Virus record (IMG/VR): IMGVR_UViG_3300044961_000578
Coordinates: 1-33,360 of that record
DNA from: a virus
Direction: 5' to 3' (one strand)
Length of the DNA: 33,360 bases
The translations under genes were made by a program, and so were the position numbers. Numbering within the stretch: position 1 is the first letter of the stretch; each line of letters opens with the position of its first letter. Shown here in pieces: positions 2,532-27,469 of this stretch. Below the pieces are notes generated by a model. The model saw nothing but the letters and a program-made list of their open reading frames with translations, made no database searches and had not been told where the DNA came from.

Positions 2532-2998
2532 CTGCTGACCAGTGGGAATCTATTCGCGCAGAGCGCGAAGCTGGGGCGAGTTTCCCAGAGCTTGCGGCGA
2601 AGTGGGGCGTCTCGCACCAGGCGATTCAGAAGCGAGCAAAAGCCGAAGGGTGGGGGGATGGCTCAGACGTAGCCGACGTGATTCGGCGCAAAGTTGCAGA
2701 AAAAGTTGCAGGGGTAGTTGCAACCTACAACCCCAAAAAGCGCGCCCAGGCCATTGATTCTGCCGCAGACCGCGCAGCGGAGGTGGTCAGGAAACACCAG
2801 GCAGAATGGGAGGAGCACCGCACACGCTTCGGTAGCGTGCCAGCGGACTTCGACGACGGCAAGCTCGCCAAGATCAGCGCCGAGATGCTCAAGATCCGGC
2901 AGGAAGGTGAACGCCGTGCCTGGGGCCTAGACGATGCCGCAACGCAGCCCACCATCGTCATCGAGCGCAGCTACGGCAAAAAGCCCGATTCGTTATGA
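2519..2998 (+). CDS. terS: Terminase small subunit
   Basis: Start chosen at ATG 2519 (MPRLTADQWESIRAER), since the upstream in-frame GTG at 2483 lies deep in the previous gene and has no ribosome binding site. 159 residues. The N-terminal 45 residues form a helix-turn-helix of the terminase type (FPELAAKWGVSHQAIQKRAK), which in this family binds the packaging site. The rest is charged and helical, consistent with ring oligomerisation. The stop overlaps the ATG of the large subunit (ATGA), the classical terS-terL arrangement. Confidence 0.85.
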   Translation: MPRLTADQWESIRAEREAGASFPELAAKWGVSHQAIQKRAKAEGWGDGSDVADVIRRKVAEKVAGVVATYNPKKRAQAIDSAADRAAEVVRKHQAEWEEHRTRFGSVPADFDDGKLAKISAEMLKIRQEGERRAWGLDDAATQPTIVIERSYGKKPDSL

Positions 2999-4227
2999 AG
3001 CTCCACATCAAAATCCCACCGCCCGACCTGCACCAGGGCCAGCAGATGATTCTCGAGAGCCCGGCGCGGTTCAAAGTCGTTTCTGCTGGGCGGCGATTCG
3101 GGAAAACCCTGCTCGCCATCGAGTGGTTAGCGTTCGCGGAAGGCGGGGCGCTCGACGGCGCTTCGGTGGGGTTTTTCGCGCCCACCTACAAGCTCCTGAT
3201 GGAAGCCTGGAACGATTTTGAATATACCCTGACTCCCATCATGAAGCGCTCGAATAAAACCGAGATGCGTATGGAGCTAATCACGGTCGGGAAAATAGAC
3301 TTTTGGACGCTCGAGGACAACAGCGCCGGGCGTGGCCGTAAATACCATCGAATCGTCATCGACGAGGCGGCGCACGCACGCAACCTCAAAAACATCTGGG
3401 AGCAATCGATTAGCCCGACGCTGACCGATTATCGCGGCGAGGCGTGGTTTATCAGCACGCCCAGCGGGGTGAACTTTTTTTACGAGCTATACCAGCGCGG
3501 CCTCGACCCCGCCTACCCGGACTGGGCCTCATTCCAAATGCCTACGAGCGCAAACCCGTACATTCCCGCTGCCGAGATTGAGCAGATGCGCCAGCAGCTA
3601 CCGGAGCTAGTATTCCGGCAGGAGTACCTGGCCGAGTTCGTCACGATGGGAGCGGGCCTCATCAAGCCAGAGTACATCATCAGCGCACCAGCACCTACTA
3701 ACGCTCGAGTGGTGCTGGGCGTTGACCTTGCCATCAGCCAGCGCACCGGCGCGGATTACACCGCCATCTGTGCGATGAGCCGCGACGAGCAGAGCGGCAT
3801 CATCTACATTCACGAGGTGGAGCGATTCCGGGGTCAGTTTGCCGAGGTGCTCGAGCGCATCAAAGCGGCTGCCGCTCGCCACAATCCCGCTCTAATCGCC
3901 ATCGAAGAAACGCAATACCAGGCCGCCGTGGTGCAGGAGCTTGCACGTACCACCACGCTACCGGTGCGCGGCGTGCGACCAGACCGCGATAAAATCACTC
4001 GATTCGCGCCGCTGCTCACACGCTACGAGCGCCACATGGTACGCCATGACGAGAGCCGCATCCCTGCCGTATTCCGGGACGAACTGCTATCATTTCCTCA
4101 GGGAGAGCATGACGATATGGTAGATGCTGCATCCCACGCCTATTATGGATTGGAGCTGCTCAATGCATCGCAGGCTAATCCCACGCATGTGCTCCACACG
4201 CTGCGAGCAGTACGGAGGCAGCAATGA
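2995..4227 (+). CDS. terL: Terminase large subunit (packaging ATPase/nuclease)
   Basis: 410 residues. Walker A is at residues 30-38 (SAGRRFGKT), Walker B at 121-124 (VIDE), and the coupling motif STPSG at 154-158. The C-terminal RNase H-like nuclease has its acidic residues at D244 (GVDLA), E304/E305 (IEET) and D373/D374 with D377 (EHDDMVDA). All catalytic residues expected of a working packaging motor are present. The protein pumps DNA into the procapsid through the portal encoded next, and cuts the concatemer. ATGA overlaps on both sides give a tight terS-terL-portal unit. Confidence 0.95.
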   Translation: MKLHIKIPPPDLHQGQQMILESPARFKVVSAGRRFGKTLLAIEWLAFAEGGALDGASVGFFAPTYKLLMEAWNDFEYTLTPIMKRSNKTEMRMELITVGKIDFWTLEDNSAGRGRKYHRIVIDEAAHARNLKNIWEQSISPTLTDYRGEAWFISTPSGVNFFYELYQRGLDPAYPDWASFQMPTSANPYIPAAEIEQMRQQLPELVFRQEYLAEFVTMGAGLIKPEYIISAPAPTNARVVLGVDLAISQRTGADYTAICAMSRDEQSGIIYIHEVERFRGQFAEVLERIKAAAARHNPALIAIEETQYQAAVVQELARTTTLPVRGVRPDRDKITRFAPLLTRYERHMVRHDESRIPAVFRDELLSFPQGEHDDMVDAASHAYYGLELLNASQANPTHVLHTLRAVRRQQ

Positions 4228-8441: not shown

Positions 8442-8655
8442 ACCGGCGGTGAAAACCGCTGAGGTAAACGAGACTTCCGAGGTGCAGGAGGTGCGTATCC
8501 TGGTTGTACGCACCTCGCCTCAGGTGACTCGCGGCGGTCGCTACACACTGCCCGATGGCATCCAGATTGGCGAACAGCCTGTCGAGGTGGAGTTCTCGCC
8601 GCACATCCAGCGGTTGCTAGAGCGCGGCGAAATCATGATTATTCGAGGTGAATGA
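8413..8655 (+). CDS. Small head-associated protein, 80 aa
   Basis: Start chosen at ATG 8413 behind AAGGTGG (8400-8406), overlapping the capsid gene by 29 nt; the upstream TTG at 8386 lacks a site. The N-terminus is Lys/Pro-rich (MPHSPKPARKPAVK) and disordered. The rest looks like two or three strands with PDGIQIGEQPVEVEF. Many siphoviruses have such a short ORF between the capsid and connector genes. Function unknown. Confidence 0.65.
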   Translation: MPHSPKPARKPAVKTAEVNETSEVQEVRILVVRTSPQVTRGGRYTLPDGIQIGEQPVEVEFSPHIQRLLERGEIMIIRGE

Positions 8656-9888: not shown

Positions 9889-10179
9889 ATGACCTATTAC
9901 CAGCACATCAACGGCAGGCTTGAGCCCATTGCAGATGCGGATTGCATGGCGCATACCGAGGCCTACTGCGATTATCTGGATGCAGAGGAGCGCATCGCAA
10001 TACTCTACTCCGATAAGCGTCTGTGCGGCCTGGAGCCTCAATCCCGCCTAGAGATGGTGCGTGCTCATCCTGAGATACCGTGGTATGCGGTAGCGATTGA
10101 TGACGCGCAACACGTAGCCGAGCTGAGCAAAGCCCAGCTCAAAAAATTGCAAAAAATGTTGGAGGTAACAAATGGCTGA
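9889..10179 (+). CDS. Unknown tail-region protein, 96 aa
   Basis: Start chosen at ATG 9889, directly behind GGAGGTGAG, rather than the GTG at 9850 inside the previous gene. The product starts MTYYQHINGRLEPIADADC, is acidic in the middle and ends with a lysine-rich helix (SKAQLKKLQKMLEV). Nothing identifies it; small ORFs of this kind are common between neck and tail tube genes. Confidence 0.6.
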   Translation: MTYYQHINGRLEPIADADCMAHTEAYCDYLDAEERIAILYSDKRLCGLEPQSRLEMVRAHPEIPWYAVAIDDAQHVAELSKAQLKKLQKMLEVTNG

Positions 10180-10900
10180 ACCTACGACTCTACCAGCAAT
10201 CTCAACGCGCTCTTATGTGGTATCCAAGGATACCTATTTGCGCTTCGGGAAACGGCACAGCAACAATACGTACGCAACAGTGGCTATCACGGTCGGCACC
10301 GGTGGCGTTACTCTAAACGGCACTAGCATGCCGCTGACTGGTACGCGCACGCAAATCATCCCTGCAGGCAGCATCATCGTAGATAACACCGACCCCAGTC
10401 TGGTTACGAAATGGTGGAAAGTCACCGCTGATGTAGCCACCAACGCAACAAGTGCTACTATCGAGGCTGCCAAATTTACTGCAGCGGCCAACGATACGCT
10501 GCAATATATCGCGATGTGGGTAGTCAAACCTACGGAGTGGAAATCGTTTGAGGCACCGCCTGCAGAGCCGCAAACTGTAGAGGTGCGCGATGGGGCGGGC
10601 AACCGCGTACAGCTCGAGGATGGTGTGACGTTCCCATTGCACTCAGTGATTTTGAATCTCGCTGAGACTGATTGGCGCATCGAGCAACTGATGTCATGGC
10701 GCAAAATGAGCGGTACCGCCAGAGATATTGATGTAATTATTGCCGACGGTGGCAACGGCGCGCCTAACGGCGGTAAAACGATGCGAGCCAAATTTGCCTG
10801 GGTTGACCGTATCCGTGGCTCTGAGCCCGACCTGCCCTGGCGCGTCACGTTCTCGCCGCTGGATGACAATCCGTTCCGCGCTGACGGCACCTACTACTAG
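10172..10900 (+). CDS. Probable major tail (tube) protein
   Basis: 242 residues, ATG at 10172 after a strong GGAGGTAAC site. All-beta in character, with many Thr/Val/Gly strands and a helix near residues 168-182 (WRIEQLMSWRKMSG), as in tail tube proteins. It lies between neck genes and the chaperone pair/tape measure, which is the conserved position of the tube gene in siphoviruses. The strong ribosome binding site suits a product needed in many copies. No sequence motif proves the call. Confidence 0.65.
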   Translation: MAEPTTLPAISTRSYVVSKDTYLRFGKRHSNNTYATVAITVGTGGVTLNGTSMPLTGTRTQIIPAGSIIVDNTDPSLVTKWWKVTADVATNATSATIEAAKFTAAANDTLQYIAMWVVKPTEWKSFEAPPAEPQTVEVRDGAGNRVQLEDGVTFPLHSVILNLAETDWRIEQLMSWRKMSGTARDIDVIIADGGNGAPNGGKTMRAKFAWVDRIRGSEPDLPWRVTFSPLDDNPFRADGTYY

Positions 10901-10911
10901 GACTGGCGTCT

Positions 10912-11235
10912 ATGCTGACGAGCTACTATTTTGGCCTAGAGGGCGCATTGCTCCCGAGCCTGATTTTGTTCGGCGCTCGTCGCATAGACGACCGCATCAC
11001 AGCAGAGGCCTACGCCACGCGCTTTGCGTGCGCCGGGCCTCTGCTGCAAATGCGGCCTCGAGACGATGATGCAAAAACGTTCGAGGTTATCGAGGGCGGC
11101 CTCACCGTTTGGTGTGAGCCGCTAGAGGCGTTGATTTACAAGATCGAACCTTTTGAGGTCAGAGTTTATGCCGAGCAAAAAACAACAGACCGAGGCAGTG
11201 ATTACGCTACGTTTGAGCGATTTGACACCACCTGA
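10912..11235 (+). CDS. Tail-region protein of unknown function, 107 aa
   Basis: ATG at 10912, 11 nt after the previous stop; the only upstream purine-rich stretch is weak. The sequence starts MLTSYYFGLEGALLPSLILF and continues with beta strands and an acidic C-terminus. It overlaps the next gene by 68 nt. No family recognised; position suggests a minor tail component. Confidence 0.55.
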   Translation: MLTSYYFGLEGALLPSLILFGARRIDDRITAEAYATRFACAGPLLQMRPRDDDAKTFEVIEGGLTVWCEPLEALIYKIEPFEVRVYAEQKTTDRGSDYATFERFDTT

Positions 11236-11611
11236 TTTGAGCCGTGTGCAACGGTATCTGCCGACGTTGCGGAGTTTGCTCAAACCAGTGCCGGTACAAC
11301 TGGGCGAGACCGTGTGCGCACTCTATGCGCTGGGCCAGGGCACGCCGGAGCGCGAGTATCTGGTCAAGCTGTTCGAGTACTGGCTGACCGATGTGACCAC
11401 CATTGCACAGGCAAAAAACGCACGCGGCGAATACCAGCGCCTCGCGCGGCTGCTGGCTGAGAAAATCAAACCGTACATTGATTTGTTCAGGACAGAGGGG
11501 CCTGAGCTGGAGGTAGAGGCACTCGAGTATCTCGGCGTGGATGGCTGCTACAAACTGCTGGAGGCCATGATTACGGGCACCGACCCAAACGCCCGGAGCA
11601 CCGCGACCTGA
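11168..11611 (+). CDS. Tail assembly chaperone, short form (G-like)
   Basis: Start chosen at ATG 11168 with GAGGTCAG upstream; the GTG at 11153 lies in front of that site. 147 residues, helical and charged, directly before the tape measure gene, which is the position of lambda gpG. The zero frame ends at TGA 11609-11611, which falls inside the loop of a strong hairpin. Just before the end lies a -1 slippery heptamer at 11584-11590, so a fraction of ribosomes should make a longer G-T fusion. Confidence 0.85.
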   Translation: MPSKKQQTEAVITLRLSDLTPPDLSRVQRYLPTLRSLLKPVPVQLGETVCALYALGQGTPEREYLVKLFEYWLTDVTTIAQAKNARGEYQRLARLLAEKIKPYIDLFRTEGPELEVEALEYLGVDGCYKLLEAMITGTDPNARSTAT

Positions 11612-12096
11612 ATCCTCGCGGTGCAGAAATACTCACACTGCTGAGAGCCACAGGATTTAGCCATGAACACGCACCGGACATACTCGCAGAAGCGCACCTG
11701 CGCGGATTATCGAGCCTGTGGTTTTTCCTCTACTATCCGATCTACGATCTCATCGCAACCATACGTAATGCGCTGGGTGGCAAAAAAACGGAGGCAGATA
11801 TGAACGCAAAACCGATTGACCCGTACAATGCGATTGAGCTGATGCCTCCGTTCGCGCTCTCCGAGATTGGCCTGCGGCATTTGCCAAAGGGCTACCTCAA
11901 ACTGCTCGATCCAGCGTTGCTAAAACATTTCAAAATATCGCTCTATGAGGGCGTATCCGGCCTCCCTATCGCGGTCGAAACCGCCAAACAAATCCTTGAT
12001 GCCAACAATCGCGGCCTGTTTGTTGGTCGCTCCTATGAGCAGTTTAGGGAGATTGCAGCGCAGCTAATGGCAACCATCGAGCGAGGTGAGGATTGA
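11168..12096 (+). CDS. Tail assembly chaperone, frameshifted long form (GT-like, 309 aa)
   Basis: After a -1 slip on C CCA AAC at 11584-11590, the new frame is open without interruption through 11590-12096. It reads PKRPEHRDLNPRGAEILTLL and onward into the frame containing ATG 11800. One base is read twice, giving 309 residues. In lambda and many siphoviruses this fusion binds the tape measure protein and recruits tail tube subunits, while the ratio of G to GT is set by the slip rate. An independent start at ATG 11800 (98 aa, GGAGG just upstream) is possible as well. Confidence 0.8.
11584..11624 (+). promoter_or_regulatory. Programmed -1 ribosomal frameshift signal
   Basis: The slippery heptamer CCCAAAC at 11584-11590 is in the correct X XXY YYZ phase (codons GAC CCA AAC slip to CCC AAA). 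A spacer of 7 nt follows, then a perfect 9-bp inverted repeat: GCACCGCGA at 11598-11606 and TCGCGGTGC at 11616-11624, with a 9-nt loop. The zero-frame stop lies in the loop. All three elements of a canonical -1 frameshift site are present at the expected gene. Confidence 0.88.
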
Positions 12097-15000
12097 TGGC
12101 ACGGGCGTTTGTAATCGGTACTCTGGCATACCGCGTGGGCCTCGATGGCAACGCCAAATCGGATTTGCGCCGCCAGCTTCAGCAGCTCGAGCGCGACCTC
12201 AAACTGAACATCAGCGTCAACACCCGTGGAGCCGAGGCCGAGCTACGCCAGACCACGCAGGCTGTGCGTGGCGAGGCAGAGCGTCTCAGTGCCGCCATCA
12301 ACAATCAGATCGCCACCATCCGCAATCTCTACCAGGCCAACAAACTAGGCGCAGGCGAGGCCACACAGCAACTCGCGGTGCTCAAACAACGCGCGTTGGA
12401 GTTTGCTCAGAGCGCCCAACAGTTCGGAGGCAGCACCCGCGAGATACGCGCCTTTGCTCAGGCCGCACGTACTGCTGAGGCCACGATGGCCGGTATACGC
12501 GGCGAGATTAGCAAACTGGGTCTGTCGTCGCAGGTGCTGCTGGCGCTGCGGCAAAATGCCACCCTGCTCGGTCAGGGATTCGGAGCCGCAGGCCAGACGC
12601 TCGGTATCGTAGCAGGGCAGATTAGCGGCCTGGGCCCCATCGTCTCAGGGCTGGCCTCACCGCTGGGCATCGTGGGTGGCTCGGTTGCAGGATTGACCAC
12701 AGCGCTGGGTACGCTGGTGGCTCGAGGCCGCCCGTTGCTCAACGATCTCGAGCGCTCGTTCAACATTTTGCGAGCCTCTGGCGAGCGCGATATTGGCGGC
12801 ATTGCTGAGCGTATCCAGGAGTTGCAACAGCAACTCGGCAACGTCGGCGAGTCGTTCAACCGCGCCCAGCTCGCGCAAACCATAGCCGAGACCGTCAAAG
12901 CGGGTGCCTCGGCCTCGGACGCATTCCAGATTCTCGCATCGTCCGCTCAGCTCGCTGCTGCTGAGCAAACCAACCTCACCGAGACTACCGGCTTGCTGCT
13001 GACCAACCTCCGGCAGTTTGGATTGGCCGCCTCGGATGCAGCAGAGTTTGGCGATAAACTGGCTACTGCGGCCAACCTTGCCGCTGGCACTGCCGCTGAT
13101 TTGAGCCAAGGATTCAACGTCGTGGGCGCGACAGCGCGCAGCCAGAACCTTACGCTGGCTGATACATTGGCGCTGCTCGTAGACCTCGACAACAAAGGCC
13201 TCAAGGCCAGCGAGGAGGGCGCTCGTGGTCTGCGCGGAGTGTTGGCGGCGCTCTCTAAACCAACCGCCGATTTACAGCGAGCACTGCGAGACCTGGGCGT
13301 AGAGTTTACCGATGCCAACGGGCAGTTTAGACAGGCCGGGCCTCTGCTACTCGAAATCATCCAGCGATTCCAGGGCAACGAGGATGCAGCTCGCAGGCTC
13401 TCTACCGGATTCGATGTATTTGCCCGTAACGCATTTCTCGCGCTTGTGCAGGCTCCTGGCCAGGGGCAGATTAGTCTCGCGCAACTCCGGCAGGAGATCC
13501 AAAACAGCGAAGGCGCGCTCAAACGTTACGCGGACACACTCGCGACTGGCGGTAAAAAATCTGCCGACTCGCTCAAAAACGCCCTTGATGATTTGAGTAT
13601 CACAATTGCCGGATTGTTCGATACCAGCGCGCTAAACAGCAAACTGGCCTCGTGGGTGCGTGCCATTGATAACGCCATTCAGCGAGTGCGTAAATCGTTT
13701 GAGGACGCGGGCCTCAAAGGGCTACTAGCTCAGGGTTTATCGTTCACCGGCCCCGTCACCATCCCTGTGCAGTTGCAGCCTAGCGGGCCTCCAGGGCGAT
13801 TCACGATGGAGCGCGTAGATCAGTTGCGCAATCAAATATCGCCGCCGGTGCCGCTGCCTGCGTTTACGCCTCCCGCTGCTGCACCATCCTCTAGCGGCCT
13901 GACGCCTGCTCAAATCCAGCAGCGTCAAAATGCAGAGCTTCGGCAGGCATTGATAGAGGCGCGGCGTTTGGTGATTGCGGAGGAAAAAGCTACCGGAGCA
14001 GAGCGGCTCAAAATCGCGCAGGAGATCAATAAGTTCTTGGCCTCTGGCAATCGCGAACTACGCCGTGAGGCTGTGCAGATTGCACGGGATGAGCTGCGCG
14101 AGCGCGAGCGTCTGGCAAAAGAGGCCCAGCGCCGCCAGCAGCAGGCCGCTGAGCGAGCCACCAGAGAACGGCGGCAAGCAGCAGAACAGGCAGCGCGAAC
14201 TGAGCAGCAGCGTATCGCAACAATCGCCAGCCAGCGTGAGCGCGAGGAGACCGATGCCCTGCGCCGCACTATCAGCCAGCGCACCGCAGCGCAGCTAGAC
14301 GCGCTGAGAAAACAGCTCGAGCTAGAGCATAAAAACGCACGCACCGCTGATGCTCGCCGCATTGCCTATGAGCGCCTCAACATCGTACTCGATGAGTTGG
14401 CACGGCGGCAAAACTCCGCTAATGCTTCTGCTCAAGCGCTCGCACAAAATGGCGCCGTGCTCCGTGCGGGCGCAGTTGTAGCACAGGGGCTCTCTCCAGG
14501 TTTTGCTGATTTTGGCCGGTTCGTCACGCCGGGCACGCCGCAGGATTTTCAACGGTTTTCGCAAGCGCAACTACCGGTACTATCGCCTGTAGAGGTTGAA
14601 AAACTCATTGATTCGCTACTCGATGACATTCTAAGTTTGGACGAAAAATATGGTGATGAAATCGGGCAGGCTGGCGCTAATCTAGCCGCAGAGTTCTGGC
14701 GGGGATTTTTTGTAGCAGGCGCTGAGACTCTTACTCCAGAACAGCAACAGGCGCTGATTGACCAGATCACTGACGATATTCTTGCAGCAGATAGCGCCCT
14801 AGGCGATACCGTAGGCCAATCAGGAGAGGCGCTGGCAAACGAGTTCTGGCGCGGCTATGCTCAGGCAGAGACCGGCGCGACGCTTGCACAACAGGCCGAA
14901 GAACAAGCCGCGCTTATCAACAGGCTGACGCTGGAGGCTGTGGAAGATGCGCAGGCCGATCTCGAGCTTGACCGCCTGCGCCTCGATGAAATCCTTGCCG

Positions 15001-16301
15001 GTGGCCTCACGCCGCAAAATGTAGATCAGGCGGTAGCCCTGGCCGAACGGCTGGCTAACTCCGGTCTGGATGTATCCAGCGCCTTCGAGGCTATAGCCGC
15101 AGCCAGCGCGGATGTAGCCGCAGCGGAGAACGAAAACGTAGATAATCTAGCTGCTATACAGGTCGGCTTTGAATCAGCATCTGACCGTGTAGCCGAATAC
15201 AGCGTAGAGACGCAGCGCCTGCGCAATGAGGAGGAGCTGAATAATCAGCAGCGTGAGAAAATTATCAGGCTCACTCAGGAGGCCGTAGAGGATACCCAAG
15301 CCCAGCTCGAGGTAGAGCGGGAACTGGCTCAAGCCAGACAGAAGCAGTTACAGGATTTGACGCAATTCGTTGATGCTACAGCCAACGCGGTGCGTGGCGT
15401 ATTCGATGCGTTCAACGCACAGACGTTCTCGCAGTTTGCAAACAGTATCTCTAGCGGTGTGGCCCTGGTTGCTAACACCTTGGCGCCTGGTTCCGGGCCT
15501 CTGGCTCAAACCGTGCTGGGGTTTATCGGCTGGGCAGTAGATGGCCTGCTCTCGGTATTTGATAACGGGTTTGCCGAGGTGGAGCGCCGCATCAGCCAGA
15601 GAGTCAAAACATTGCAGTTTGCCACCAGAGCTATATTCGATGGTGCCGTTGAGACCTATACCGAGAGCTATCTATTTGGCATCATCCGTGTGACCAAGCA
15701 GCGACTCAATGAGGAGCGAGCGGATCTGATCCAATCGGTTGCCCAGGGCGTCAGCGGTCAGCTCGCCAACGCGATAGGTAAGGGCTTCAAGGACGCGCTT
15801 GAGACCGGCGATTTCAGCGCCTTCCGCGCCGCGCTCAATGCAGGCCTGGCTGATACTGTGACCTCGGCGTTGATTGATAGCCTGCTGCGTAGCAAGCTGT
15901 TAGAGGGCGTTTTAGACAACGTAATCGTTGCCCTGACCAACGACATCGAGGGCGATGAGGAAGAGGCATTTAGGGAGCTACAGCGTCGTCTGGATAGCCT
16001 CTCGCCGGTGTTTGAAAATCTCTATGACCGCCTGCTCAAAATCCGCGAGCAGTTTGGCATCACACCAACGCGGCCTGAGACTCAGCAGCCCGCCGCACCG
16101 ACACCTGCTGCGCCAGAGCCAACCACACCGACTCTCCGTGTGGGCCTGGGCCCGGTGTTTGCCGTGCCAGACTGGTGGAGTCGCCCGCCGCAATGGCTGG
16201 ATACATTCGGGGCATACATCAATCGGCTCGTAGAGCAGGGCATCCGTATACGTATCGAGAGCACCGGGGGATTGGCAACCGTGCTCAATGCCAGGGGATG
16301 A
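12096..16301 (+). CDS. Tape measure protein, 1401 aa
   Basis: ATG at 12096 behind GAGGTGAG (12083-12090); the TTG at 12093 is less likely. This is the largest gene. Residues ~20-140 are coiled-coil. About 230-430 resemble the phage minor tail/tape measure core (segments LAQTIAETVKAGASASD and LADTLALLVDLDNKGLKASE). Residues ~609-778 are a long Arg/Glu/Gln/Ala coiled coil. A hydrophobic stretch at ~1110-1155 (ALVANTLAPG to WAVDGLLSVF) could be membrane-active during DNA entry. By the usual rule of about 0.15 nm per residue, the tail would be roughly 200 nm long. Confidence 0.93.
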   Translation: MARAFVIGTLAYRVGLDGNAKSDLRRQLQQLERDLKLNISVNTRGAEAELRQTTQAVRGEAERLSAAINNQIATIRNLYQANKLGAGEATQQLAVLKQRALEFAQSAQQFGGSTREIRAFAQAARTAEATMAGIRGEISKLGLSSQVLLALRQNATLLGQGFGAAGQTLGIVAGQISGLGPIVSGLASPLGIVGGSVAGLTTALGTLVARGRPLLNDLERSFNILRASGERDIGGIAERIQELQQQLGNVGESFNRAQLAQTIAETVKAGASASDAFQILASSAQLAAAEQTNLTETTGLLLTNLRQFGLAASDAAEFGDKLATAANLAAGTAADLSQGFNVVGATARSQNLTLADTLALLVDLDNKGLKASEEGARGLRGVLAALSKPTADLQRALRDLGVEFTDANGQFRQAGPLLLEIIQRFQGNEDAARRLSTGFDVFARNAFLALVQAPGQGQISLAQLRQEIQNSEGALKRYADTLATGGKKSADSLKNALDDLSITIAGLFDTSALNSKLASWVRAIDNAIQRVRKSFEDAGLKGLLAQGLSFTGPVTIPVQLQPSGPPGRFTMERVDQLRNQISPPVPLPAFTPPAAAPSSSGLTPAQIQQRQNAELRQALIEARRLVIAEEKATGAERLKIAQEINKFLASGNRELRREAVQIARDELRERERLAKEAQRRQQQAAERATRERRQAAEQAARTEQQRIATIASQREREETDALRRTISQRTAAQLDALRKQLELEHKNARTADARRIAYERLNIVLDELARRQNSANASAQALAQNGAVLRAGAVVAQGLSPGFADFGRFVTPGTPQDFQRFSQAQLPVLSPVEVEKLIDSLLDDILSLDEKYGDEIGQAGANLAAEFWRGFFVAGAETLTPEQQQALIDQITDDILAADSALGDTVGQSGEALANEFWRGYAQAETGATLAQQAEEQAALINRLTLEAVEDAQADLELDRLRLDEILAGGLTPQNVDQAVALAERLANSGLDVSSAFEAIAAASADVAAAENENVDNLAAIQVGFESASDRVAEYSVETQRLRNEEELNNQQREKIIRLTQEAVEDTQAQLEVERELAQARQKQLQDLTQFVDATANAVRGVFDAFNAQTFSQFANSISSGVALVANTLAPGSGPLAQTVLGFIGWAVDGLLSVFDNGFAEVERRISQRVKTLQFATRAIFDGAVETYTESYLFGIIRVTKQRLNEERADLIQSVAQGVSGQLANAIGKGFKDALETGDFSAFRAALNAGLADTVTSALIDSLLRSKLLEGVLDNVIVALTNDIEGDEEEAFRELQRRLDSLSPVFENLYDRLLKIREQFGITPTRPETQQPAAPTPAAPEPTTPTLRVGLGPVFAVPDWWSRPPQWLDTFGAYINRLVEQGIRIRIESTGGLATVLNARG

Positions 16302-16302
16302 T

Positions 16303-17949
16303 ATGCGATGGATCATACTGAGCCTAATCCTGCTGCTAGGATGCAGCAAACCGCCACAGCTACCGTTAGCTGCAGCGTGGTACTCAAACCAATCAGGAGC
16401 GCACACTATGCCGTGGAGACTGACAGTTTGGACACCAAATAAATCAACGCAGAAGGCGCAGTACCAGCCGCCAACCAGTACAGGCGGCATTGACCATACG
16501 CGCCCGATGCGGTGGAAACTGCGCGGCGACGGCAATCCGCTGGAGCTGCGGTTTTTTGGTCAGCCCTCGCTGCTCGATATTGCCGCCGGGGACATTGTGC
16601 GACTGGAGGTGCAGGACTCGAGCAGCAACTGGCACGCGGTGTTTTACGGCTACATGGATACCGCCTACAACAGCCAGGAGACGCGCATACAGGAGTACGT
16701 TGCCATCGGCGGATTTGAGCTGTTGCGGAGTGTGTGGTTCGACGCGGGCTATGAGTTGCAAAATATCAACAACATTGCACTCAACGTCGGTCAGAATTTT
16801 GGGCATCCCGCACTGTCGGCTACCAGTGGAGATTTCTTGAATCCCGGCCAGCAAATCGCAATCGAGTTTGGCTCGTTTGCGAACGCCGCTGATGTGCTCG
16901 AGGGATTGGCGCGTAGCATTGTGGCCAGCCCTCCGTGGACAGCACGCATTGATGGCAATGGCAATCTCACGCTCTCGCCGCGACCCACGACTGAGCGAGC
17001 TATTGGCTACCGTGAATCTGGATTTAGCACCCTGCCATCGAGAGCCAGCAACATCTACACCGAGGGCATCGCAGTAGCCTATACGGGCGGCGCATCTCGA
17101 GAGCGGTTTGTGCGAGCCTACGAAACCATCAACCCAGGCGGTATCATCCTGCCCTACAAACCAAACGCGATTGCTGCATCGGTGCAAAGCTCGCTGCATG
17201 GGACATATAAGCGTTCGCGGGTTGAGGTATTTCCCGGTGATCCGTTTGTGCTCACGACGCCGAGCGCGGCGACAGGCAGCGGGTTTGCAAATGCCAACAA
17301 TGTGCGCGACGGAAACAACAGTACGTATGCCAACAACACCGGTGGGTTCAGCTCGCTGGAGGCAACCCTCAATCGGCCCATCTACGGCGTCGAGATTGTC
17401 TACGAGATACTCGGCTCCTACCAGGCTATTTTGAGCGTGCGACGTACCAGCCTACCATCAGGATTCCAGTACGACGACTACGTGACGTATCAGCTCGAGC
17501 GCACATCGCAAATCAGCACCTTCTATGCGATTGCCCCCGTGAGCGGCATCCACAACAATCAGCCGTTCAACCAGAGCACCATTGCAATCACGATAGACGC
17601 GCCTTCCGATAGCATTCGCATCTACGAAATTAGAATGATAGAGCTATCCCCTACCGTGACTGAGTTTGCACGCTCGCTCATTGCCGAGCCGGTCAGTATT
17701 CCATCCGAGGTGCGCTGGTCTGAGTTTTTCGTACCGACTGCCAACCTGCGTATTATCAACGCGCCTGGAGGCGATATAGTCGCGCCGGTCGAGACCTGGG
17801 AAGGCGTGATCCAAAAAACACAAACGGTTTGGATTGCTCGCATTGGCGACACAGGGGCAAACGAGGACGGGGCTACGCTGCTGCGGGCTTTGAATCAGAG
17901 CGCAAATATCGCCACCATCAACGCCCAGACGTTGCTCTCTAGGAGGTAA
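16303..17949 (+). CDS. Tail tip/baseplate-type protein with optional lipoprotein leader
   Basis: Two in-frame starts look usable. ATG 16303 (AGGGGA four bases upstream) gives a short signal peptide, MRWIILSLILLLGC, ending in the lipobox LLGC with Cys14. ATG 16408 (AGGAG at 16395-16399, eight bases upstream) gives MPWRLTVWTPNKSTQ and a 513-residue protein without leader. The body is beta-rich and follows the tape measure gene, the place of tail tip or hub proteins. Residues ~60-110 (LELRFFGQPSLLDI to VFYGYMDT) resemble hub-like domains. ATG 16288 upstream is less likely. Precise family unknown. Confidence 0.75.
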   Translation: MRWIILSLILLLGCSKPPQLPLAAAWYSNQSGAHTMPWRLTVWTPNKSTQKAQYQPPTSTGGIDHTRPMRWKLRGDGNPLELRFFGQPSLLDIAAGDIVRLEVQDSSSNWHAVFYGYMDTAYNSQETRIQEYVAIGGFELLRSVWFDAGYELQNINNIALNVGQNFGHPALSATSGDFLNPGQQIAIEFGSFANAADVLEGLARSIVASPPWTARIDGNGNLTLSPRPTTERAIGYRESGFSTLPSRASNIYTEGIAVAYTGGASRERFVRAYETINPGGIILPYKPNAIAASVQSSLHGTYKRSRVEVFPGDPFVLTTPSAATGSGFANANNVRDGNNSTYANNTGGFSSLEATLNRPIYGVEIVYEILGSYQAILSVRRTSLPSGFQYDDYVTYQLERTSQISTFYAIAPVSGIHNNQPFNQSTIAITIDAPSDSIRIYEIRMIELSPTVTEFARSLIAEPVSIPSEVRWSEFFVPTANLRIINAPGGDIVAPVETWEGVIQKTQTVWIARIGDTGANEDGATLLRALNQSANIATINAQTLLSRR

Positions 17950-18387: not shown

Positions 18388-18894
18388 ATGGCGCTGCCCA
18401 ACACGCTACCAACCAGCACGACCGAACCAGTCTGGGCCGATAGTGGCGCTACGCAGCGGCAGGTGTTGCTCACCGATTTGGCACGCCTGTTTGATTCCGA
18501 CGTGGATTACGAGCCGTTTGTGGCCTACTCCGGCAGTCTGTATTTTGTGGCTGGTACAGGGCAGGAGCAGCCAACAGAGATAGGTGTAGAGCTGGTTGTA
18601 TCCGAGAGCAACATCACCAATGCAATCACGCAACTCTACAACCTCGAACAAGCGCTTCGTACCACGACCATGTTTGTGTTGGCGCAGAGCAACGGCGAAT
18701 GGCGGCTGGGCCGAGAGATATTGGGCCTGATCAGCATCGGCACAGCACGCCGTATGACCAACGGACAGGGGTATATCGTCCGAGCGCGATTTGCCGCGTG
18801 GAGACTGGCAGAACTCAACTATCTGACCGATGAGACCGACGATATACTGACCGCAGAGGACGATGATTATTTGATTGTGGAGGAGGTAATCTAA
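18388..18894 (+). CDS. Tail protein, 168 aa (second of a MALP pair)
   Basis: ATG at 18388 behind TAGGAGTCTGAC. The N-terminus MALPNTLPTST repeats that of the preceding gene. A middle segment, NITNAITQLYNLEQALRT, parallels its neighbour. The C-terminus is strikingly acidic (DETDDILTAEDDDYLIVEE). The stop shares a base with the next ATG, and the strong GGAGGAGGTAAT site for the next gene lies in its last codons. Likely tail-tip structural protein; function not known. Confidence 0.65.
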   Translation: MALPNTLPTSTTEPVWADSGATQRQVLLTDLARLFDSDVDYEPFVAYSGSLYFVAGTGQEQPTEIGVELVVSESNITNAITQLYNLEQALRTTTMFVLAQSNGEWRLGREILGLISIGTARRMTNGQGYIVRARFAAWRLAELNYLTDETDDILTAEDDDYLIVEEVI

Positions 18895-19906: not shown

Positions 19907-20021
19907 AATATCGGCAAGGAGGTAAATCTATCACAGCCGTCTGAGGTCAGCAGCGTTCTTCCTGGCCCTGTTCGCCTCCTTGCAGGGCCAGGCCACCTGA
20001 TAGGAGGCACAGGAGGGACCT
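19907..20021 (+). promoter_or_regulatory. Structured leader between endolysin and holin-like gene
   Basis: A 10-bp perfect inverted repeat (CCTGGCCCTG at 19961-19970, CAGGGCCAGG at 19983-19992) encloses a 12-nt loop whose CCTCCTTG (19975-19982) is anti-Shine-Dalgarno. It is fully complementary to CAAGGAGG at 19915-19922, which has no ORF, and partly to the two AGGAGG sites just before the gene at 20022. No T run follows, so it is not a standard terminator. A translational switch on the next gene is possible. Confidence 0.5.
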
Positions 20022-26137: not shown

Positions 26138-26370
26138 TTCCCCGTGCAATCGTTGTGCTGTTGCTGTTTGGCGCTGCGTTGTTTTTGCCCGCTGCCCTGG
26201 TAGCCACCGGAGGCGGCAACTGGGTGCTGACCCTCCTCTACGGTGGCGGATTTGCCATGTTTTTGAGCGCAGCGGTGGTGTATGCGGCGCTGGTAGTAAG
26301 CGGGAGATGGGACGGTAACAATCCCACGGCTAAAGCGCGTGGGCTTTCGGGAAGGGACGATGCAGAGTAG
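26134..26370 (+). CDS. Small two-span membrane protein with transposon-derived C-terminus
   Basis: ATG at 26134 in an ATGA overlap. Two hydrophobic spans (residues ~5-22 and ~30-52) are followed by SGRWDGNNPTAKARGLSGRD. The last ~15 residues are encoded by the transposon end: codons from about 26323 onward lie in its terminal hairpin and the tnpB 3' end. The original C-terminus was therefore probably replaced when the element inserted. Confidence 0.6.
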   Translation: MIPRAIVVLLLFGAALFLPAALVATGGGNWVLTLLYGGGFAMFLSAAVVYAALVVSGRWDGNNPTAKARGLSGRDDAE

Positions 26371-26450
26371 AGATTCCCAAAATCGGGGCCGTGTTACGGC
26401 GGCCCGCGCCCGTCGAGCCCGCTCTCTGGGCGATGTTGGCGGATGCGTTC
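26300..26450 (-). ncRNA. Predicted omega RNA of TnpB (approximate extent)
   Basis: TnpB nucleases are guided by an RNA derived from the 3' end of tnpB and the element's right end, with the guide copied from flanking DNA. Here that would cover the end of tnpB, the hairpin at 26323-26343 and the first bases of the phage sequence to its left. The location is from family knowledge; the boundaries and the actual transcript are inferred. Confidence 0.35.
26323..26343 (-). repeat. Right-end hairpin of the tnpB element
   Basis: Perfect stem CCCACG/CGTGGG plus inner GC/GC, TAAA loop and one unpaired G. The tnpB stop codon (26330-26332) lies inside it, as is usual where the omega RNA overlaps the 3' end of tnpB. 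Confidence 0.75.
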
Positions 26451-27469
26451 AGGTCGGCGTTTTGCTGATACCCGCACCGTTGGCAGCGGAACAGGGCTTG
26501 GCTCTTGCGGTTGGCCCCGTCGCAATGCCCGCACCGGCTGCACGTCTTGGAGGTGTCGCGGGGGTCAACGGCGACCACCCGCACCCCCTTCAGGGCCGCC
26601 TTGTACTCCAGCAGGGAGCGGAAGCGGGCGTAGGGCCAGAGGTTGTGCAAATGCCGGACCTCCTTGCCTCGCTTGGCAGTGCGACTTCTAAGCCCCGTCA
26701 AGTCCTCGATGGCGAGCGTATCGCCGGGTTCGAGGCTGTCCACAATCCGCTTTGCCAGGGTGTGCAGGGTGTGGTCCACGAAGCGCCGCTCTTTACCGCT
26801 AAGCCGTTCCCAAAGGGCGCTCAGCCCCTTGGTGCGTTCGGTGTCGAGCTTACTCCGTACCTCGGCGCGCTTGTTGCGGAGGTGGATGCGCCGAGACTTC
26901 ACGCCCCCGCCCGAGACCTGGATGCCGTTGGACAGGGTAGCCATGTAGCGCTGCCCCATGTCCAAACCAACCACTTTACCGCCGCCTGTGGGCGGGGTGG
27001 GGACTTCCAACCTGAGTATCAGGTTGATGTACCACTTGCCCTTCGGCCCCTTGGTGAGCACCCCGCCCTGGACGCTCTTGGCCCTCGCCAGCATCCCCCG
27101 CTGGTAGTTCCCGAGCTTCATCGGGACGATGAGCCGCCCCGCCGTGGTGGTCAAGGACACCGACTCACCCCGGAGGGACAGGGTGCGAACGTCAAAGGCG
27201 GCCGAGGTGGGCTGGTAGAACCTGGCCCGGCTGCCCTTCTTGCGACCCACGCGGGCAATCGCTTGTATGGCGAGGTTGGCACTGAGCCCCATCGAACGGA
27301 GGTCGTTATAGACCAGGCGGTGCAGGCTGAACCGCCGGAACTCCCCCTTCTCCCGCGCAACCCGCAGGGCGTGGTTGCAGCCCTCGGCAAACAGCCGCAC
27401 CGTGGCCTCCAGCGCTGCCGCCTGTTCAGGGGCGGGCTTCAAGGTGCAGCGGAGCGTGAGGGTCTGCAT
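26330..27469 (-). CDS. tnpB: TnpB RNA-guided nuclease (IS200/IS605 family)
   Basis: 379 residues. The RuvC-like catalytic residues are all present: Asp170 (VVGLDMGQRY), Glu255 (LAIEDLTGLR) and Asp339 (NADLNASANI). The zinc ribbon has CSRCG at 310-314 and CQRCG at 329-333, preceded by the typical DPRDTSKT. The enzyme should therefore be catalytically intact. TnpB proteins cut DNA next to a short target-adjacent motif and favour retention of the element. The gene is the only one on the - strand and its stop is inside the right-end hairpin. Confidence 0.93.
   Translation of the reverse strand: MQTLTLRCTLKPAPEQAAALEATVRLFAEGCNHALRVAREKGEFRRFSLHRLVYNDLRSMGLSANLAIQAIARVGRKKGSRARFYQPTSAAFDVRTLSLRGESVSLTTTAGRLIVPMKLGNYQRGMLARAKSVQGGVLTKGPKGKWYINLILRLEVPTPPTGGGKVVGLDMGQRYMATLSNGIQVSGGGVKSRRIHLRNKRAEVRSKLDTERTKGLSALWERLSGKERRFVDHTLHTLAKRIVDSLEPGDTLAIEDLTGLRSRTAKRGKEVRHLHNLWPYARFRSLLEYKAALKGVRVVAVDPRDTSKTCSRCGHCDGANRKSQALFRCQRCGYQQNADLNASANIAQRAGSTGAGRRNTAPILGISTLHRPFPKAHAL

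Follow-up and report, generated by a model that had tools for sequence, protein, structure and literature searches.

A probable programmed -1 frameshift cassette between two putative tail assembly chaperone frames of an orphan long-tailed phage

Two overlapping open reading frames directly precede the tape measure gene in IMGVR_UViG_3300044961_000578, an IMG/VR virus record of which positions 1-33,360 were analysed (33,360 nt, referred to here as the window). The second frame is long and lacks a start codon near the end of the first, raising the question of how it is translated. In phage lambda the tail proteins gpG and gpGT arise through a frameshift on G_GGA_AAG, an arrangement conserved widely in tailed phages according to the account of Xu, Hendrix and Duda (2004) that is given in PMC5009743. 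The original prediction was that a -1 frameshift likewise joins the two frames here, as tail chaperone genes, and this is supported by the gene order, by the heptamer with its spacer and stem and by a coding-like, startless -1 frame. We conclude that the locus is very probably a programmed -1 ribosomal frameshift cassette between two tail assembly chaperone frames of a long-tailed phage. The features are collected in Table 1.

Table 1. Features of the G/T locus and its surroundings, in window coordinates.
Feature	Position	Strand	Basis
G-like ORF in the zero frame (147 aa), short form of a putative tail assembly chaperone	11168..11611	+	start ATG 11168
Slippery heptamer C_CCA_AAC	11584..11590	+	in phase; sole X_XXY_YYZ in overlap
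T-like -1 frame extension, 168 codons + stop; predicted fusion GT, 309 aa	11590..12096	+	open, coding-like
7-nt spacer	11591..11597	+	direct reading
Putative stimulatory stem-loop, perfect 9-bp stem and 9-nt loop	11598..11624	+	reading, folding
Candidate pseudoknot stem 2 partner GGATTTAG	11653..11660	+	pairs with loop 11608-11615 CTGAATCC, 8 bp, one G-U
Possible internal translation start, GGAGG 11790-11794 and ATG 11800; 98-aa C-terminal part of T	11790..12096	+	motif
Tape measure protein	12096..16301	+	PHROG matches

The tape measure assignment comes from strong matches to nine PHROG families, PHROG 1533 at an E-value of 3.6e-37 and eight other tape measure families at 6e-16 or better. The G-like ORF, which has GAGGT 8 nt upstream of its ATG, precedes this gene, and T runs straight into it, the tape measure ATG overlapping the T stop (TGATG, 12094-12098). 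Further upstream of G/T are the major head protein and terminase genes. The locus resembles lambda G/GT in having overlapping frames by the tape measure gene, a shift in the -1 direction, a slip site near the end of G and a T frame without an early start codon of its own.

Coding character was scored from codon usage, with 18 other ORFs of the window as the training set. The G-like ORF scores +50 bits, compared with -87 and -43 in the other two frames. In the -1 frame (phase 1), 11506-12093 is free of stops, the flanking ones lying at 11503 and 12094, so that it does indeed run open to the T stop, as had been predicted, and its first ATG, GTG or TTG is the ATG at 11800. The stretch of this frame ahead of that codon, 11590-11799, scores +10.1 bits, which lies among the values of true in-frame windows (19% of these do no better), and none of the 161 equally long off-frame windows without stops reaches it, the best scoring -4.8. 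T is thus coding in character close to the junction and has no start there, and since the -1 frame offers no ATG, GTG or TTG before 11800, a change of frame is the simplest route by which 11590-11799 could be translated.

The elements expected of such a change are present at the junction, and the original prediction gave the positions of the heptamer, spacer and stem exactly. The heptamer, whose zero-frame codons are CCA (11585) and AAC (11588), lies 18 nt before the G stop, and of the frame pairs of the window listed with a slippery heptamer only G/T has a -1 frame that is startless before the zero-frame stop. The spacer falls within the usual distance of 5-9 nt between heptamer and structure (PMC7618472). 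Of the stem strands, GCACCGCGA (11598-11606) pairs with TCGCGGTGC (11616-11624), and the zero-frame stop, TGA at 11609-11611, is held in the loop CCTGAATCC (11607-11615). The folding energy of the stem-loop is -15.4 kcal/mol at 37 C and -8.1 kcal/mol at 70 C. It had been suggested that the host might be thermophilic, for which nothing seen here gives support; no tRNA genes were found in the window. The minimum free energy of 11584-11660 is -20.2 kcal/mol, with a z of only -1.7 against dinucleotide shuffles, so what stands out is the combination of elements and not the folding energy by itself. In dinucleotide-shuffled strands of the window, the combination of XXXAAAN or XXXTTTN, 4-10 nt and a perfect stem of at least 8 bp with a loop of 3-12 nt is expected 0.03 times per strand, falling to 0.01 for a 9-bp stem; on both strands of the real window, with stems of at least 8 bp, it occurs once, at G/T. 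An intrinsic terminator can be ruled out for this hairpin, as there is no T run downstream (AGAAATACTC). An Rfam search gave nothing near the cut-offs, and searching with the hairpin as a DNA pattern matched nine viral contigs, none of which encodes a relative of the chaperone. Perfect 10-bp hairpins are also seen at 8488-8516, just after the major head protein gene, and at 19961-19992, outside or at the ends of large genes.

The anatomy of the junction bears on two other explanations of the overlap. G and T could be a single continuous gene of 309 residues, split by a one-base error of sequencing or assembly or by a real mutation. The base concerned cannot be checked, as the window comes from a single IMG/VR virus record and the searches gave no second copy; an error, however, would not place an in-phase heptamer, a well-spaced perfect stem and a stop within its loop at the junction, and a G/T overlap just before the tape measure gene is the usual layout in long-tailed phages. 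We consider this explanation highly improbable. The frame could instead change for real at another place in the overlap (11506-11608), or T could be reached by transcriptional slippage or from a non-standard start codon, and the -1 frame does contain several CTG, ATA and ATC codons. Against this, the overlap has no other in-phase heptamer and CCCAAAC does not contain a long homopolymer of the kind used in transcriptional slippage, and the chance that such a route is the correct one seems vanishingly small.

If the ribosome does slip on CCCAAAC, most ribosomes would keep to the zero frame on C_CCA_AAC, open the hairpin and terminate at the TGA of its loop to give G. A minority, made to pause by the hairpin, possibly a pseudoknot, that lies 7 nt further on, would slip back by one base, with tRNA-Pro on CCA and tRNA-Asn on AAC re-pairing on CCC_AAA. 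These would resume at CGC (11590) and continue into T to give GT, with a predicted fusion junction of DPN-RPEHR. The frames would give products of 147 and 309 residues, the lengths originally predicted. What the sequence itself shows is the elements, the frames, the coding-like -1 frame and the order of the genes; slippage, its rate and the chaperone role are inferred. By analogy with lambda, many copies of G for each GT would coat the tape measure protein, with the T part recruiting the major tail protein.

The heptamer had been described as a less usual one. This holds only in part. Sites of the form NNNAAAC have been reported in the tail chaperones of Loki (PMC5313236), KL1 (PMC3483164) and the haloviruses HCTV-1 and -2 (PMC5009743), and in actinophages PRFect has found each of the four bases at every position of the heptamer (PMC10885494); although no report naming CCCAAAC as a frameshift site was found in the literature searched, it is no departure in kind from known tail-chaperone sites. 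On the other hand, its predicted strength in E. coli is low. A systematic study in that organism found C_CCA_AAG to be the strongest motif, reaching 54% with the IS3 pseudoknot, while motifs with AAC in the A site were weak because the A-site tRNA-Asn re-pairs non-cognately on AAA (PMC4066793). This weakness counts against slippage at the site; beside a weak A-site codon of this kind the strong stem makes sense. Lambda needs a low share of GT, with a G:GT ratio of about 30:1 (PMC5009743), and a weak slip site combined with a strong stimulator would fit a similarly low share here.

Two features that did not form part of the original prediction were also seen. The first is the candidate pseudoknot, in which a stem 1 of 9 bp and a stem 2 of 8 bp would be connected by a loop 1 of 1 nt and a loop 3 of 28 nt. 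A match of this length was found in 0.3% of cases when the downstream 60 nt were shuffled and in 1.5% of other real 60-nt segments of the window (2.7% when judged by energy). Under synonymous recoding of the same amino acids, an 8-bp pairing with the loop arose in 11-18% of cases (p 0.11-0.18), and the partner strand can also be drawn into a small local hairpin of about -4.7 kcal/mol. The pairing may have arisen by chance, and that the pseudoknot is real is at best an even bet; the frameshift conclusion does not need it. The slip site of the NNNAAAC type, the 7-nt spacer and the proportions of the candidate stems and loops are similar to those of the coronavirus-type signal, in which stem 1 is about 11 bp and loop 3 about 30 nt (PMC7618472), whereas the virus and the type of ribosome are unrelated and the pseudoknot here is only predicted. 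That the phage has independently reached a signal in the coronavirus style, with an NNNAAAC site that has Asn in the A site and would be weak in E. coli, an H-type pseudoknot of long stem 1 and long loop 3 to help it, and three products (G, GT and an internally started C-terminus of T), is a doubtful idea.

The second feature is the possible start at 11800. The GGAGG is 5 nt from the ATG, which is in the T frame, and forms a consensus ribosome-binding site in a context also seen where the gene at 4224 starts (CGGAGGCAG). Translation from it may thus yield the C-terminal 98 residues of T separately as well as within GT, and 11790-12096 could encode a distinct product or be a once independent gene that has become fused in frame to T. 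Taken further, G and this 98-residue protein could be two separately started genes with 11612-11799 untranslated between them, leaving the heptamer and hairpin coincidental. The GGAGG ahead of ATG 11800 favours this, as does the count of GGAGG-ATG pairs of such spacing in the window, 21 compared with 5.6 expected, most of them at plausible starts. The 188-nt gap, however, would fall exactly where the -1 frame lacks stops and looks coding, the heptamer and stem would have to be present by a chance of about 0.01-0.03, and an internal start is compatible with the fusion, so that both can hold. We therefore regard two wholly separate genes as very improbable. The internal start leaves the coding-like stretch ahead of 11800 unexplained, so it would add to the frameshift and not replace it.

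Among phages in which joined G/GT genes are annotated, Acinetobacter phage Loki (AAAAAAC) and Burkholderia phage KL1 (GGGAAAC) share the AAC A-site codon with this locus, and their G proteins, of 146 and 142 residues, are close in length to the one here. In Loki a stem is found about 8 nt downstream of the heptamer, compared with 7 nt here. In both phages there is no gap (0 nt) between heptamer and stop, whereas here the stop is 18 nt on and within the loop, and both have a further gene between GT and the tape measure gene, where here there is none. The best direct alignment, to Loki G, is a weak match at 28% identity (E 0.13). The locus differs from lambda G/GT in its C_CCA_AAC heptamer, in the possible internal start and in that no protein similarity to known chaperones was detected. 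In another virus record, L009, a putative chaperone frame has CCCAAAA near its end (position 18770, VDPKGL), with a -1 extension of 218 nt whose first start codon comes 45 nt past the zero-frame stop.

Searches for relatives gave little. No homologue of G was found in phages (by tblastn), viral contigs or genome contigs and none of T in viral contigs or plasmids, GT gave only unrelated matches in phages with E-values of at least 0.3, and neither G nor T matched PHROGs, Pfam, NCBIfam or PDB sequences. AlphaFold single-sequence models of G and T had a pLDDT of 44, too poor for fold comparison. As these searches gave no homologue, the two frames are called tail assembly chaperones from position and anatomy, and the case for the frameshift is anatomical, not comparative. 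No relatives of the tape measure and capsid proteins or of those encoded at 10172-10900 and 16288-17949 were found in viral contigs, the N-terminus of the tape measure protein gave no match in genome contigs, and among isolate phages only distant relatives of the capsid and tape measure proteins were found. The terminase has three relatives, at 77-83% identity, in IMG/VR contigs (L002, L003 and L004). These share no tail genes with the window and have no comparable cassette in the DNA that was compared, and so cannot be used to test conservation of the frameshift. The terminase region, 2552-4130, is 76-81% identical in DNA to the three contigs, while their head and tail genes have no DNA or protein match to those of the window, an apparent exchange of modules beside the terminase. 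A further 374 bp of L002 match 26314-26687 at 98% identity.

The cassette is an ordinary, well-known device, here in a new example from an orphan phage. Its recognition enables the tail chaperone genes of such a phage to be annotated where protein similarity is silent, and the locus offers a clean natural test case for asking whether a weak bacterial heptamer, with AAC in the A site, can be made to work by a strong structure downstream.
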